Assembly (NCBI GenBank): GCA_945288535.1
Contig: CALYQQ010000001.1
Coordinates: forward strand, 62,001 to 126,000
Source of the DNA: an uncultured Enterobacterales bacterium
GTDB taxonomy: Bacteria; Pseudomonadota; Gammaproteobacteria; Enterobacterales; CALYQQ01
Direction: 5' to 3'
DNA: 64,000 nucleotides
The notes beneath the pieces were generated by a model. That model was not told the DNA's origin and searched no databases. It saw only the letters and a list, made by a program, of their open reading frames with translations. A program made the position numbers and the translations under genes. This document shows, in pieces, positions 45,597-63,616 of the stretch. The first letter of the stretch is position 1, and each line of letters begins with the position of its first letter.

Positions 45597-45625
45597 ATAA
45601 GTTAATTAAATGCTAGTTAACTTAT
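45597..45625 (-). terminator. Hairpin at the end of pdxR
   Basis: ATAAGTTAA pairs with TTAACTTAT over 9 bp around an 11-base loop; the stem overlaps the pdxR stop codon. A run of eight or more Ts follows about 15 bases further on the minus strand. It is a possible terminator of pdxR. Confidence 0.45.
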
Positions 45626-47041
45626 TTTATGCTCCTTAGGTAAATCAAAATGAGCGAAGCTGAGTCGTAATGTTGAGTTGCGATCACCAAAATGACTACC
45701 TTTAGCAACAATAATATTATTTGCTAATAATCGATTAAAAAATTGATCTTCACAAGAAGATGATCGACTCTTTAATTGTGCATACAAATGAAATCCTCCT
45801 GTCACTTTATGACAATCTAGCATATCGGTCAATTGCTCATCTAGCCAATTACGCATCAAATTTAATTGCTTTTGTAAAAAATTTCTTAATAATGCTTGAT
45901 GATTTTTGTAATGATAAGCCAAATAATCCTCTGCAAGTAATTGAGGCAGAATACTGAGTCCTGAATCAATAAAATGCCTAATTTCAGCTAGTTTATTAAT
46001 GAGTTCTGTCGGCGCTACCATCCAACCAATACGAATATTTTTTCCAATGTACTTAGATAAAGATCCTAAGTAGATAACTTGATTATATTGATCAAATTTT
46101 TTTATAGGTAATCTATCAGTTGTAACCTGATCAAAATACAAAGCACTATAAGCATCATCTTCAATAATACCAATTCTATATTGTCTGCAAAATTTCAGCA
46201 CATCCAACTTACGAGCATTACTCATAATTCGCCCAGTAGGATTTTGAAATATCGGATTAAGTATTAGCCATTTTGTACGATATTGTTTGACAATATTACT
46301 TAATTCATTAAGTTTTATACCTTCATCATCCATAGGTATCCCATAAATTCGTAACCCCGCCGCTTGAAATAATGGTAAAGAATAAAAATAGGACGGAGTT
46401 TCTATAGCTATAGCATCGCCAGGTTTTAATAAACCTTGTGTAAGTAAAAATAAAGATTGCTGTGTACCCGAAGTAATGAGGATCTGCTCTAATGGCACCT
46501 TTAGGCTAAATTGCTGATACATATAATCCGCAATTAATTTTTTCAGAGAATAACGACCTAAAAGTGCAGCTTGCGGATCTTTTTCCTGAAAAATAAGTTC
46601 TTGTTTCGACATTGTAGGTAATGTTAATTGTGGGATCATAGCAACGGGCAAGTCACCATTTGATAAATCATAGAGAGGAATATTATCTCGCTTAGCACAT
46701 TGTTTAAATTGTTCTATTTTTTGTTGGTAAAGTGATGCAGGTTTTACCAAACCAGCTGGTAATTGCCAGTTAATTTTAGGATATGTTTGTACTCCCCATT
46801 TTTGCGTATGCATAAATGTGCCCTTTCCTTGATGGCGAATAATCACACCTCGTGACGCCAATTCATCAAGTGCATGAACTAATGTCGAGCGATTAACTTG
46901 TAAACTTTTGGCAAGCGTACGCTCAGCAGGTAAACGTTCCCCTGCAACCAATTTACCTTGAGTAAGATAGTCCTCAATTAAAGCAATAATTTTTTCATAC
47001 AATGCACCTGAGTATGTTGCAAGTTGTTTGGCTTCCCACAT
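45617..47041 (-). CDS. pdxR: PdxR, MocR-family PLP-sensing regulator
   Basis: Fusion of an N-terminal GntR winged-helix DNA-binding domain (residues 12-80; LPAERTLAKSLQVNRSTLVHAL is the recognition part, read in overlapping pieces) and a class I aminotransferase-like domain that binds PLP. K330 in YLGSLSKYIGK is the Schiff-base lysine; NPTG and EDDAYSALYFD hold the cofactor. It is 474 aa, usual for MocR proteins. Divergence from pdxST with a 112-base shared spacer is the classic arrangement for PdxR, which activates pdxST when PLP is scarce. The name rests on family plus context. Confidence 0.92.
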   Translation of the reverse strand: MWEAKQLATYSGALYEKIIALIEDYLTQGKLVAGERLPAERTLAKSLQVNRSTLVHALDELASRGVIIRHQGKGTFMHTQKWGVQTYPKINWQLPAGLVKPASLYQQKIEQFKQCAKRDNIPLYDLSNGDLPVAMIPQLTLPTMSKQELIFQEKDPQAALLGRYSLKKLIADYMYQQFSLKVPLEQILITSGTQQSLFLLTQGLLKPGDAIAIETPSYFYSLPLFQAAGLRIYGIPMDDEGIKLNELSNIVKQYRTKWLILNPIFQNPTGRIMSNARKLDVLKFCRQYRIGIIEDDAYSALYFDQVTTDRLPIKKFDQYNQVIYLGSLSKYIGKNIRIGWMVAPTELINKLAEIRHFIDSGLSILPQLLAEDYLAYHYKNHQALLRNFLQKQLNLMRNWLDEQLTDMLDCHKVTGGFHLYAQLKSRSSSCEDQFFNRLLANNIIVAKGSHFGDRNSTLRLSFAHFDLPKEHKIS

Positions 47042-47153
47042 AAATCAACTATTCCTAATAAAAAATTGGATGGCATAATAATAGTCCAATTGGCTGTTTT
47101 TTCATATTTGTTCTCTGCGCATAATAATGGCTTATTGATAAAGGAGAACGAAC
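47042..47153. promoter_or_regulatory. Divergent pdxR/pdxST control region
   Basis: The 112 bases hold a direct repeat, GCATAATAAT, at 47073-47082 and 47119-47128, and an inverted repeat, ATTGGA/TCCAAT, at 47065-47070 and 47085-47090. The second direct repeat could double as a -10 box for pdxS. A strong AAGGAG ribosome site precedes pdxS. MocR regulators commonly bind repeated sites in such spacers, so these are candidate PdxR operators; none is proven. Confidence 0.6.
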
Positions 47154-48041
47154 ATGAATAAAATAATCGGTTCTGAAAATGTAAAACGCGGTATGGCTCA
47201 GATGCAAAAGGGCGGCGTTATTATGGATGTTATCAATGCACAACAAGCTAAGATTGCAGAACAAGCAGGAGCCGTTGCTGTAATGGCGTTAGAACGTGTT
47301 CCATCCGATATTCGAGCCGCAGGTGGTGTTGCCAGAATGGCTGATCCTACTATTATCGAAGAAGTGATGCATGCCGTCTCTATCCCTGTTATGGCCAAAG
47401 CACGTATTGGTCATATTACTGAAGCACGCATACTCGAAGCTATGGGAGTTGATTATATTGATGAGAGTGAAGTCTTAACACCTGCCGATGATCAATACCA
47501 TTTATTAAAACATGAATTTACTGTTCCCTTTGTCTGCGGGTGTCGTGATTTAGGTGAAGCTTTTCGGAGAATTGGTGAAGGTGCGGCAATGTTACGTACT
47601 AAGGGTGAGCCAGGCACAGGAAATATAGTTGAAGCAGTTCGTCATATGCGTCACGTTAATGATCAAATTCGTCTTGTATGCGGAAAAAGTCCCGATGAAC
47701 TGATGGCTTATGCTAAAGATATTGGTGCGCCTTATGAATTATTAGTAAATCTAAAACAAACAGGAGCATTACCTGTTGTTAATTTTGCCGCAGGCGGCAT
47801 TGCCACCCCAGCAGATGCCGCATTGATGATGCAGTTAGGCGCGGACGGCGTATTTGTTGGTTCCGGTATTTTCAAATCTGATAACCCTGAAAAATTTGCT
47901 CAAGCCATCGTACAAGCAACAACCTATTATGACGACTATCCTCGTCTGGCTGAATTGTCAAAAGGATTAGGACAGGCAATGAAAGGGATCGAGATTAGCA
48001 CATTAGCCGATTCAGAAAGAATGCAAAATCGAGGTTGGTGA
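47154..48041 (+). CDS. pdxS: Pyridoxal 5'-phosphate synthase, PdxS subunit
   Basis: Synthase subunit of the DXP-independent vitamin B6 pathway. It makes PLP from ribose 5-phosphate, glyceraldehyde 3-phosphate and ammonia delivered by PdxT. A (beta/alpha)8 barrel of 295 aa. Catalytic residues are D25, K82 (MAKARIGH) and K149 ([11 protein letters not shown]), with phosphate-binding [13 protein letters not shown] and [12 protein letters not shown]. The strong ribosome site suggests high expression. Most enteric bacteria use PdxA/PdxJ instead, so the gene is unusual here. Confidence 0.98.
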
Positions 48042-48628
48042 TGAAAACAATTGGCGTTTTGGCATTACAAGGTGCAGTTAATGAACATATGGTACAATTA
48101 AAACGACTACATATTAATGTGGTTAATGTAAAAAAACCAAAGCAGTTAGAGCAGTTAGATGGTTTAATTATTCCGGGAGGTGAATCAACAGCAATAAGTC
48201 GATTATTAATTGAGAACCATTTCATTGAACCAATAAAAAAATTGGCTATTGATGGTAAAGGTGTATTAGGAACATGCGCTGGTTTGGTTTTATGTGCAAA
48301 AAAAACTACCAAGCCTAACAATGCCGATAAGCAAACGGTTCCATTAGATCTTATCGATATTATTGTTGAACGCAATGCTTTTGGCCGACAAAAAGAGAGC
48401 TTTGAAACGAAACTAGATATTATACATATCGGCCAATCTGTGCCTGCATTGTTTATTCGCGCACCATCCATTACATATACTGGAGCCAATGTAGAGGTTT
48501 TAGCCAAAGTAGATAATTGCATTGTTATGGCACAACAGCAAAACATTCTTGTGACAGCATTTCATCCTGAATTAACAAATGATTTGCGCGTGATGCGCTA
48601 TTTCTTAGATCTTTGCCCATCTAACTAA
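48041..48628 (+). CDS. pdxT: Pyridoxal 5'-phosphate synthase, PdxT glutaminase subunit
   Basis: Class I glutamine amidotransferase that supplies ammonia to PdxS. The triad is C79 in LGTCAGL with H175 and E177 in AFHPELT; IIPGGEST is the oxyanion-side motif. The ATG overlaps the pdxS stop by one base (TGATG), so the two are coupled. An upstream TTG at 48035 is in frame, but ATG 48041 gives the standard start [11 protein letters not shown]. It is 195 aa, a normal family length. Confidence 0.97.
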   Translation: MKTIGVLALQGAVNEHMVQLKRLHINVVNVKKPKQLEQLDGLIIPGGESTAISRLLIENHFIEPIKKLAIDGKGVLGTCAGLVLCAKKTTKPNNADKQTVPLDLIDIIVERNAFGRQKESFETKLDIIHIGQSVPALFIRAPSITYTGANVEVLAKVDNCIVMAQQQNILVTAFHPELTNDLRVMRYFLDLCPSN

Positions 48629-58269: not shown

Positions 58270-59134
58270 CTTAACCCCTTGCTAAAATAGGATGATACCA
58301 GGCAATACAATTATTAATGGTAAAATATCGCTGGCACCCTAACCTACCAATAGAATGTTTTAAATAATAATCAATAATAAAATATCTTTTAAGATAATTT
58401 TACGTACTCTTTTAAAGCTGCTTTTCTAAAGTAATTTAGTAATTATAATATATACTGAATTAGTAACTGATAATTATAACAATGAATAAAAGAATATGTT
58501 GCTTTATAAGTTAACATTTATAAACAATAATAATAAGTTATTCTTTCGATAAATTAACATTTGTGAAATGAAGAAAACCAAATAAAGTAATAAGCAATTA
58601 ATTATTCTATTGAAATTAATATAAGTCAAATATAATAAACGCTAATAATAAGGTAGAATATTAACTTTTAAAGTAGCGCGCTTTTATAGCATTTAGAAAA
58701 CATTTCTAAAATATTGCTTATTTGCAAAATATTTATTATAAAAGATGGAAAAATAAATCATAATGATTAATAGCTGATAAGAGAGTCAATATTCTAAATT
58801 AAATAATTATGTTAATTTTAATAGTATAAGTATAAGAGAGAAATAAGGGAATAACTAAAATAAATTTATTAAATTTTGGTTATTGAATAAATAAATATTA
58901 CCTATCAAACATAATAATCAGCTAATAATGCATTGATTTTCTTTATATTCAATTAAATTACCACTGTATAATTACACAATTTCCTTTTTCATTTATTCCA
59001 AACGTCAATTTGTTATTTTGGTGCTTATATTAGCATAATAACTCAATATGCGTATAATTTAGTGCGCTAGATAATCGAGATTATTATGCTAATAATCTAT
59101 AGAGAAATAGCCTGTCTTTTATCATGTTATTGTC
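58270..59134. other. 0.87-kb spacer upstream of cydA
   Basis: AT-rich, no gene; E. coli has mngR-mngA-mngB between suc and cyd, and none is recognisable. It should hold the cydA promoter. AAATGTTAA occurs twice on the minus strand (around 58511-58519 and 58555-58563), and the stretch at 58510-58526 weakly resembles an ArcA box with one base missing. This is suggestive only. Confidence 0.45.
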
Positions 59135-59165
59135 CGCATAATACCTTTAATAAAGGTATTATGCG
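59135..59165. terminator. 14-bp hairpin downstream of sucD
   Basis: CGCATAATACCTTT pairs perfectly with AAAGGTATTATGCG around a 3-base loop, 55 bases past the sucD stop on the minus strand. No T-run follows it there. It may be an RNA 3'-end stabiliser or terminator for the suc operon. Confidence 0.7.
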
Positions 59166-59219
59166 TTGTTTATTTAATCAACAAATGATGTTATAACAGC
59201 CACCTAATAATTAGAAATA

Positions 59220-60098
59220 TTAATTTTTTCTTTCGAGGGCATGTGTTACTGCTGCACCAATATCATCAAGACTTCTAACTGTATAGACACCTGCATCTTC
59301 TAATGCTTTGTATTTAGCATCAGCAGTGCCTCGCCCACCATCAATAATTGCACCGGCATGTCCCATGCGTTTACCTTTCGGTGCAGTAACACCGGCAATA
59401 TAACTAATGACAGGTTTAGTGAGATTATTTTTAATATAATCCGCAGCTAATTCCTCTGCTGTCCCGCCGATCTCACCAATCATTACAATCGCTTCTGTTT
59501 GTGGGTCTTGTTCAAACAGTGATAAAATATTAATGAAATTTGAACCTGAAATTGGATCACCCCCGATACCAACACAGGTCGATTGACCAAGACCAACATC
59601 AGTTGTTTGTTTTACAGCCTCATAAGTTAATGTGCCAGAACGAGAAACAATACCAACTTTCCCTGGTTTATGAATATGCCCAGGCATAATACCAATTTTA
59701 CATTCTCCTGGCGTAATAATACCGGGACAATTTGGGCCAATCATAATTACACCAAGTTGATCTAATTTCATTTTCACGGTCATCATATCTAGTACCGGAA
59801 TACCTTCCGTAATGCATACAATAAGTTTAATTCCGGCCTCTGCCGCTTCTAATATTGAATCTTTGCAAAATGCAGCAGGAACATAAATAACAGAGGCCGT
59901 AGCCCCTGTTACATTAACGGCTTCTTTTACTGTATTAAACACAGGCAAACCAAGATGATAACTGCCACCTTTACCCGGTGTCACACCAGCAACTAATTGC
60001 GTGCCGTAAGCTAAAGTTTGCTCAGAATGAAATGTTGCCTGCGCACCTGTAATACCTTGACAAATAACTTGAGTATTTTTATCAACCAAAATGCTCAT
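59220..60098 (-). CDS. sucD: Succinyl-CoA synthetase alpha subunit
   Basis: Alpha subunit that carries the phosphohistidine intermediate, H247 in KRMGHAGAI. CoA-binding Rossmann region with [15 protein letters not shown] and [18 protein letters not shown] and SRSGTLTYE complete the family signature. It is 292 aa (289 in E. coli). The ATG overlaps the sucC stop by four bases. Confidence 0.98.
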
Positions 60099-61264
60099 GT
60101 CTTTCCTCCTGCTGCAGCTACTGCTCGCTGAGCACCTTCAGTCAATGACTTTGCAGCAATAATATTTAAGTCACTTTTTGCAAGTATTGCTGTCGCTAAC
60201 TTGGCATTGTTACCTTCCAAACGAACAATGACCGGAATAGTTAATGCCATCTCACTTACTGCACTAACAATCCCTTCAGCAATGAGATCACATCTGACTA
60301 TGCCACCAAAAATATTAACAAAAATAGCTTTTACTTTTTTATCAGAAAGAATGATCTTAAATGCTTCACTGACCCGTTCTTTTGTTGCATTTCCGCCAAC
60401 ATCAAGAAAATTAGCCGGTGATCCACCATGTAATTTAACAATATCCATGGTACCCATAGCCAGACCCGCACCATTGACTAAACACCCAATATTACCGTCA
60501 AGTGATACATAGCTAAGACCAATTTGAGCTGCATGCGCTTCCTGTTGATCTTCTTGTGTAATGTCATACATGGCGTGCAAGTCTTTTTGCCGAAATAGTG
60601 CGTTATTATCAATACTTAACTTAGCGTCAAGACAAAGCAAATCACCTGTAGTCGTTACTGCAAGTGGGTTAATTTCTACCAACGATAAATCTTTATCAAG
60701 AAATAATTTAGCTAACCCCATAAAAATCGTAATAAATTGCGTAATTTGCTTACCTTGTAATCCAAGTTGGTAAGCTAGCTGGCGCCCTTGAAATAGCTGT
60801 GGCCCAGTTAATGGATCTAGAATTGTTTTAAATATTAATCCAGGTGTTTTTTGAGCAACTTTTTCAATATCAACACCACCTTGGGTTGAGGCAATAAAAA
60901 CAATACGCTGCGTACAGCGATCTAAAGTTGCACCAAAATAGAGCTCTTTATCAATAGGAGTAACGTTTTCAATTAATATCTTATTTACTGGTTGACCATT
61001 AGCATTTGTTTGTAAAGTAACCAACCGTTTACCCAGCCATTGAATAGAAAAATCACGTGCTTCATGTTTATTATTAATTAACTTAACACCACCTGCATTT
61101 CCTCGACCTCCCGCATGCACTTGGCATTTGATAATCCAAGGTGGAGACATCAGTTTATCTATACTTTCCTCGACATCCGTCGTGGATGAGCAAACCACGC
61201 CACTTGGTACGGGTAAACCATACTGAGCAAAAAGCTGCTTTGCCTGGTACTCATGTAAATTCAT
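60095..61264 (-). CDS. sucC: Succinyl-CoA synthetase beta subunit
   Basis: ATP-grasp nucleotide-binding subunit. Blocks are [72 protein letters not shown] (in overlapping parts) and [12 protein letters not shown]. It is 389 aa (388 in E. coli). In enterics sucC follows sucB closely; here yiiX and over 1 kb intervene, so sucCD may need its own promoter in the 204-base gap upstream. Confidence 0.98.
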
Positions 61265-61468
61265 GTTTTTGACCCATAATTATGCTAAATGTGAATAAGT
61301 TATTGTCTACTATTATCTAGCACTACCAATAATTAGTTTCCATATCAAAAATAATCTGAACTTATTAACTGTATTATTGATAGTTAATATATTTATTACA
61401 GCAGTTGTGTTTATTCTTTTTTTTATTATTAGTCAATCCTTAATCTTGATTTAATATATGCTACGTAA

Positions 61469-62119
61469 TTATTGTGCTACTGTAATAAGATGTTTTGAAG
61501 CAAATATTGCAGCAGGCGTAATAATTGCTTCATTCGTAAGCGTGATATTACCATAACGCTTGCTTATTTCTTTTTGAATATGCGGTGAAGATAAATCCAT
61601 ATCACGTAGTTTTTCTAATTCACCTAAAGAAATAGCTAACGCACCATAGTATATTTTCCATACTAATTCAGAACAATAAATTTGCTTATCTGACCAGTCA
61701 AACATAACATCATATGATTTTCCTTCATACTTTTTGGCTTCTTTTTTTAATAATTTGATATTCTCTCGAGTCAATTTTGAATTATCTTTCAAACGTTTAA
61801 CCACATACCACTGATTTTTTCCTCTAGCAATCCAATGCGTTAATTTCGTATACCGTACCGTATTAGCCGCTTCATAAACATAAGGCATGTTATTCACATA
61901 AAAAATAATACCAATATGTGTGTAAGGTGATTTGGTTACTAATTTCATTACGTTAGAATGCACTAAATTTGATTCTTGGAAGATGATATCTCCATCTTGA
62001 GGTATATAGGTATTGTCAGCTACAACTTGTTGAGTAAACAGAATTAAAATAAAAAATAATAAACAACGTTTAAATACGCGTTGCAAACTATCCAATTGAT
62101 TACCTGAATCAGATTTCAT
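61469..62119 (-). CDS. yiiX: YiiX-like permuted NlpC/P60 cysteine hydrolase
   Basis: Predicted exported cysteine amidase/peptidase of the permuted NlpC/P60 (papain-like) class. A hydrophobic N-terminal segment (residues 18-34, ending QQVVADN) is a signal peptide or anchor. The catalytic pattern matches E. coli YiiX: GDIIFQ (43-48), H68 in YTHIGII, E83 in YVYEA, and nucleophile C149 in YCSELVWKIY, with the shared tail LRDMDLSSP and KRYGNITL. It is 216 aa against about 200. AAGGA precedes the ATG. Its substrate is unknown; relatives act on lipids or peptidoglycan-type amides. Its place inside the suc operon is abnormal. Confidence 0.88.
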   Translation of the reverse strand: MKSDSGNQLDSLQRVFKRCLLFFILILFTQQVVADNTYIPQDGDIIFQESNLVHSNVMKLVTKSPYTHIGIIFYVNNMPYVYEAANTVRYTKLTHWIARGKNQWYVVKRLKDNSKLTRENIKLLKKEAKKYEGKSYDVMFDWSDKQIYCSELVWKIYYGALAISLGELEKLRDMDLSSPHIQKEISKRYGNITLTNEAIITPAAIFASKHLITVAQ

Positions 62120-62332
62120 GTTTAATCCTTATAGTAAATTGACATCTCATCGTGCAACCGATCTGATGCCAATTTTTATTATTTTATAATTTATAAACAG
62201 AACAAATAATCTAAGCATTTATTTATTAAAGGAACCATATCACTATATTACTATCAGTAATCATCATGTGGTCATTCTTTATAAATTATTCCAATGTTAT
62301 CAACAGGAATGTGTAACTGTGAATAATCGGGA

Positions 62333-63616
62333 TTAAATATCCAATAATAATCGTGTCGGATCTTCTAATATTTCTTTAATTGTTAACAAAAATCCAACAG
62401 ATTCTTTACCATCAATGATGCGATGATCATAAGATAAAGCAACATACATCATTGGTAAAATGATCACTTGTCCGTCTAAAGCAACCGGTCTATCTTGAAT
62501 AATATGCATTCCTAAAATCGCACTTTGCGGAGGGTTGATAATAGGTGTTGACATTAATGAACCAAAAACACCACCATTAGTAATAGTAAAGTTTCCTCCT
62601 GTTAACTCCTTAACAGATAATTTACCGTCTCGACCTTTTGTTGCAAGTTCTTTAATCCCTTTTTCTATTTCTGCCATGCTTAAACTATCAACATCGCGCA
62701 AAACAGGGGTAACTAATCCACGCGGAGTAGACACTGCAATGCTAATATCAAAGTAGTTATGATAAATGAGATCATCACCATCAATCGAGGCATTTATTTC
62801 AGGATAACGTTTTAATGCTTCAAGTGCAGCTTTAACATAAAATGACATAAAACCTAACCGTATTCCGTGGCGCTTTTCAAATATTTCGCCGTAACGTTTA
62901 CGTAATGCCATAATGGGTTGCATATTTATTTCATTAAATGTTGTCAACATGGCCGTTGTGTTTTTGGCCTCCAATAACCGTTCCGCAATGCGTTTGCGTA
63001 ACCGTGTCATTGGTACACGCTTTTCATTACGATAAGGATGACGCACCCATGTTTCTACTTTCGTTGCCGTAACAGGGCTAAATTCAGTGTGTTCCTGATG
63101 ATTTTTTATTTTTCCTGTTTCAGTTGAAGTCGTAGAATGCGAAATCGAAAGATAACGTTCTACATCAGCTCGACTAAAACGTCCCGTATGATTAACCGTC
63201 ATTAACTGCTCAATACTTAAATCATACTTATTCATTAGCCGACGCACTGAAGGGCTTATAGCATCCTTAAACGTTGTCACCGTTGCCATATTTATTTCTG
63301 AAACAATATCAGCGGGATTTTGCTGATGATCAGTCTTTTTTATTGTTACATCTAGAGTAGGTTTCCCTGACATATCTGCGGGACGCAAATGACCTAATAT
63401 TTGGCGTGAAACAACGGTTGCTCCTTCATTTTGTGCTATTGATTCCAGAACACCTGGTTCTATGGCAGGTACTTCGAGTACAACTTTGTCTGTTTCAATT
63501 TCGACAAGAATTTCATCGCGTTCAACGATATCACCCGGCTTCTTATGCCAAGTAGCAACTGTTGCATCTGCAACAGATTCAGGTAACTCTGGAACAAGAA
63601 TATCTATACCACTCAT
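62333..63616 (-). CDS. sucB: 2-Oxoglutarate dehydrogenase E2 (dihydrolipoyl succinyltransferase)
   Basis: Core of the 2-oxoglutarate dehydrogenase complex. A lipoyl domain with K44 in [10 protein letters not shown], a peripheral-subunit-binding domain near 113-150 ([26 protein letters not shown]), a linker, and the catalytic acyltransferase domain with H398 and D402 in [12 protein letters not shown]. It is 427 aa (405 in E. coli); the extra length is in the linkers. It begins nine bases after the sucA stop. Confidence 0.97.

Follow-up and report, generated by a model that had tools for sequence, protein, structure and literature searches.

A yiiX gene between sucB and sucC in an otherwise normal sucABCD operon of an uncultured Enterobacterales bacterium

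An uncultured Enterobacterales bacterium carries, between sucB and sucC of an otherwise normal sucABCD operon, a gene for a YiiX family permuted papain-like enzyme. We read this as a patchily distributed single gene lodged in an operon junction that tolerates insertions, and assign this reading a probability of roughly two in three. The gene lies in the window, by which we mean the whole 64,000-nucleotide stretch of DNA analysed, where the order on the minus strand is sucA (which runs beyond the window end; locus L174), sucB, yiiX, sucC, sucD and then cydAB. This gene order, all on the minus strand, confirms the separation of sucB from sucC by a same-strand yiiX claimed in the initial annotation, and the flanking spacers that it put at about 200 bases each measure 213 and 204 bp. 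The interval to which it assigned the gene (61265-62332) is indeed the entire sucB-sucC gap, of which yiiX itself occupies a narrower part, and the coordinates have been trimmed as follows:

59220-60098, minus strand: sucD, succinate-CoA ligase alpha subunit (NF004230, 470.9 bits against a cut-off of 336)
60095-61264, minus strand: sucC, succinate-CoA ligase beta subunit (NF001913, 561.2 bits against a cut-off of 370)
61265-61468, minus strand: yiiX-sucC spacer, 204 bp, 23% GC
61469-62119, minus strand: yiiX, 651 bp, 216 amino acids, a permuted papain-like enzyme (C92, NlpC/P60 superfamily)
62120-62332, minus strand: sucB-yiiX spacer, 213 bp, 27% GC
62138-62173, minus strand: hairpin or imperfect palindrome ATTGGCATCAGATCGGTTGCACGATGAGATGTCAAT, close upstream of yiiX, from folding against shuffles
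62333-63616, minus strand: sucB, 2-oxoglutarate dehydrogenase E2 (NF004309, 595.9 bits against a cut-off of 449)

The surroundings of the operon have several features of their own. The sdh genes are usual upstream of sucA in enterics; here they are replaced by a NIF3 (DUF34) gene and a DUF535 gene (L174:2689-4763). Downstream, the sucD-cydA spacer (58270-59219) is 950 bp long, AT-rich (22% GC) and free of open reading frames of at least 80 amino acids, and at the equivalent place in Gilliamella loci the spacer is only ~100 bp. Three of the window's five copies of the DnaA-box-like 9-mer TTATTCACA, for which about 1.5 are expected per whole window, fall inside the 1.07-kb sucB-sucC interval (at 61290, 61890 and 62318), a clustering that was noticed post hoc. 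Elsewhere in the window (45617-48628), a GntR/MocR-type regulator adjoins divergent pdxS-like and pdxT-like genes, identified by reading the sequences only; pdxS and pdxT serve DXP-independent vitamin B6 synthesis.

The identification of the inserted gene as a yiiX-like cysteine hydrolase is borne out by profile and structure matches. Its product matches the NCBIfam equivalog model NF007458, ‘YiiX family permuted papain-like enzyme’ (227.4 bits against a 216-bit cut-off), and Pfam PF05708, Peptidase_C92 (98.3 bits against a cut-off of 27, E = 6.6e-28), and aligns with E. coli YiiX (PDB 2IF6) at E = 8.8e-46 and ~44% identity. An AlphaFold2 model of the protein (pLDDT 88.9) has 2IF6 as its best Foldseek match (TM 0.91, target-normalised; rmsd 1.6), followed by the Bacillus cereus relative 3KW0. 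The residues H68, E83, Y136 and C149 align with His49, Glu64, Tyr115 and Cys128, which Xu et al. (2011; PMC3142127) name for the E. coli protein. The four window residues do not vary across an alignment of 30 sequences and follow the permuted order of His, Glu and Tyr before Cys, so that the catalytic His, Glu and Cys are intact as previously reported, together with the Tyr. The N-terminus has a hydrophobic helix at residues 5-31 followed by VVADN, and no lipobox-like cysteine was seen before the mature part, which is consistent with a signal peptide. Given the intact catalytic residues, the 2IF6 fold and the N-terminal hydrophobic helix, the enzyme is probably exported and active. The earlier description of an exported permuted NlpC/P60 hydrolase is supported as that of an exported-looking enzyme of this type (C92).

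From its structure, YiiX has been proposed to cleave or transfer fatty-acyl groups of lipoamino acids, lipoproteins or phospholipids (PMC3142127), and a more distant permuted NlpC/P60 member, the Salmonella effector Tox-Act1, is a phospholipase (PMC12994826). By analogy with its family, the window protein would most likely act on fatty-acyl linkages in the periplasm. It departs from its relatives at several positions that are more than 90% conserved in them (such as S52 to L, Q54 to H and P194 to L) and sits on a long branch in the yiiX tree, and because of these two features its specificity or biochemical role may have shifted from that of its relatives. A reading of the locus as a defence system was dropped, as a PADLOC search returned no match.

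Evidence for a tolerated insert comes from a survey of the sucB-sucC junction across the order. We mapped both genes in 149 genomes sampled evenly across the order, some of which also belong to an initial set of 59 relatives. In 118 genomes, the organism's own among them, sucB and sucC share a contig and a strand and could be compared. From match end to match end, the gap spans 18-338 bp (median ~105) in 112 of the 118; the remaining six, the window genome among them, carry a gene-sized insert. None of the other five has yiiX at this junction, and their inserts are unrelated to YiiX:

G016 and G022, sucB-sucC junction, same strand: dihydrolipoyl dehydrogenase (TIGR01350)
G032, sucB-sucC junction, opposite strand: CytX-like transporter
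G086, sucB-sucC junction: DUF535 protein
G160, sucB-sucC junction: ArsR-like regulator (read by eye) and ArsP-type permease

The junction thus takes inserts repeatedly (6/118 genomes). Given the short gaps in 112 genomes and the other five inserts not being YiiX, the placement of yiiX between sucB and sucC is not ancestral in the order but derived, and the earlier proposal of an insertion rather than an ancestral arrangement holds at this level. A DUF535 gene, the insert of G086, is also one of the genes upstream of sucA in our organism. Among the flanking genes, the closest sequence neighbours of SucC are in f18 genomes (up to 69% identity), and CydA is closer to that of Gilliamella (82-85%) than to that of G017 (72%).

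The survey represents the organism's family by one genome, the window's own, and the order sucB-yiiX-sucC may accordingly be an old feature of that family, derived from a single ancient insertion. Host-like codon usage and an identity of only ~50% to any relative fit such an age, and mean that the insertion need not be recent, whereas yiiX is absent from the junction in the sampled genomes of the order's other families. We consider an ancient, family-wide arrangement quite possible, if somewhat short of an even chance; it concerns the age of the insertion rather than its function, and is compatible with a patchily distributed gene in a tolerant junction. As a point against a simply tolerated insert, the arrangement may be both old and maintained within the family.

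Outside the suc operon, yiiX occurs in varied company. Of 395 genomes of the order, 32 gave yiiX-like matches, among them weak or fragmentary ones, and at 70 related yiiX loci from several phyla, most with no more than 6 kb of flank, none of the suc query genes matched. By reading of the sequences, yiiX of Gilliamella is flanked by ndh and by rnhB, towards which it is convergent, and in Providencia, Wohlfahrtiimonas and f18 genomes it has other neighbours; the rnhB locus of the window genome reads rnhB-dnaE-accA, without yiiX. These differing neighbourhoods indicate that the position of yiiX is unstable across lineages, the suc site being one among several. In five loci of the Gilliamella genus (L200, L202, L204, L205 and L206) yiiX is fragmentary or interrupted by stops, suggesting repeated loss of the gene there. 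In the Gilliamella loci L135-L140, sucCD lie directly beside cydA with sucB out of reach, and SucB matches in the genus are weak only (E ~1e-40 to 1e-44), consistent with a loss of sucAB.

In the yiiX tree the window copy falls on its long branch in an open polytomy, and the copies from Enterobacterales do not group together. With this polytomy the tree is compatible with a donor as well as with a vertical origin, and with relocation within the genome as well as with lateral gain. An origin as transposon or integron cargo was rejected, since repeats, second copies and phage matches were all absent beyond chance level. The gene is single-copy in the assembly, which answers the question of another yiiX elsewhere in the genome, and only chance-level short matches to the sucB-sucC interval or its spacers were found in the rest of the genome. 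The strongest direct repeat shared by the two spacers, 13 nt with one mismatch, is within chance expectation (at least one such repeat arises in 17% of shuffles), no repeats beyond chance were found, and no transposase open reading frame lies in the interval, in keeping with the earlier remark that no transposon ends are visible.

A recent lateral transfer from another host-associated bacterium of high AT content would accommodate the patchy distribution of yiiX across phyla, the ungrouped Enterobacterales copies and an overall GC content of 31%, below the 38-40% of the suc genes. We nevertheless regard it as unlikely. The third-position GC (22%) is host-like and codon usage falls inside the range of host genes, a composition that argues against recent foreign gain, albeit one compatible with a similarly AT-rich donor. 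Furthermore, the closest relatives are ~50% identical, with no nearer donor, traces of mobile elements or repeats were not found, no phage match was obtained, and the plasmid matches are solely on records labelled non-mobilizable, several of them chromosome-sized.

The spacer upstream of yiiX contains a candidate regulatory element. The hairpin at 62138-62173, ~18 nt before the yiiX ATG, has a folding energy of -18.6 kcal/mol (71-nt stretch, z = -5.31), matched by none of 200 shuffles, and its sequence is not repeated elsewhere in the genome at E <= 1. GC-rich palindromes occur in the short sucB-sucC gaps of many relatives, their sequence being unlike that of the window hairpin. At the end of the same spacer, AAGGATTAAAC precedes the yiiX ATG, with AAGGA as a plausible ribosome-binding site. 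Terminator-like sites were found in neither spacer, promoter-like sites were no commoner than in shuffles, and no RNA family was identified in or near the spacers. The hairpin may act as an attenuator, protect an mRNA end or serve as a palindrome to which a protein binds, and could modulate read-through into yiiX-sucCD; we infer that these genes are most likely expressed by read-through that is modestly attenuated. A split of sucAB from sucCD expression, as raised in the initial annotation, is possible, and the upstream hairpin fits it.

It might be supposed that yiiX was recruited so that an envelope acyl-hydrolase is co-made with 2-oxoglutarate dehydrogenase and succinate-CoA ligase, and that the hairpin determines how much sucAB is made relative to yiiX-sucCD. 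The shared strand, the spacers devoid of terminator-like sites, the plausible ribosome-binding site and the strength of the hairpin directly before yiiX are all in line with this idea. However, the yiiX-suc pairing was found in no other genome surveyed, junction inserts in other genomes are unrelated, and yiiX of other lineages sits with unrelated genes, making such recruitment improbable in our view and leaving the earlier suggestion of a coupling between a TCA operon and an envelope or lipid hydrolase unsupported. We give very little credence to the organism's family keeping a sucAB-yiiX-sucCD operon under hairpin control, with a periplasmic acyl-hydrolase made in step with the TCA enzymes. 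Most likely the suc location of yiiX has no special regulatory meaning, a point against a neutral junction being that the hairpin is far stronger than chance, so that the junction may be regulated.

Under the preferred reading of a patchily distributed gene in a tolerant junction, yiiX would have arrived as a stand-alone gene, by relocation within the genome or by gain, and would have been tolerated as the junction downstream of sucB accepts inserts. Its transcription probably depends on read-through from the suc promoter, whereas translation probably starts from a ribosome-binding site of its own, and its product is probably a periplasmic enzyme acting on fatty-acyl groups of lipoamino acids, lipoproteins or phospholipids. 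The locus is a further clear example of an unrelated gene that interrupts an operon of central metabolism. To our knowledge YiiX has no established physiological role, and its gene neighbourhoods are for that reason a possible functional clue; our survey argues that these neighbourhoods are unstable and should not be over-read.

Comparison with known systems places the arrangement as a rare but precedented event, in which an unrelated gene of a known enzyme family occupies a tolerant operon junction. With E. coli YiiX (2IF6; NF007458; PF05708) the window protein shares its family, fold, catalytic His/Glu/Tyr/Cys, exported-looking N-terminus and ~44% identity; it differs in several near-invariant positions and in the location of its gene in the suc operon. 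Gilliamella (Orbaceae) YiiX is among the most similar proteins (~50% identity), but there yiiX lies between ndh and rnhB, sucCD adjoin cydA and SucB has no orthologue-level match. The B. cereus enzyme BcPPNE (3KW0) has the permuted papain-like fold in common with the window protein at ~20% identity, and differs in the state of its substrate site. A parallel in layout is the sucB-[lpdA-like]-sucC order of G016 and G022, likewise with one same-strand gene at the same junction. There the insert is functionally sensible, since dihydrolipoyl dehydrogenase is a subunit of the same enzyme complex.
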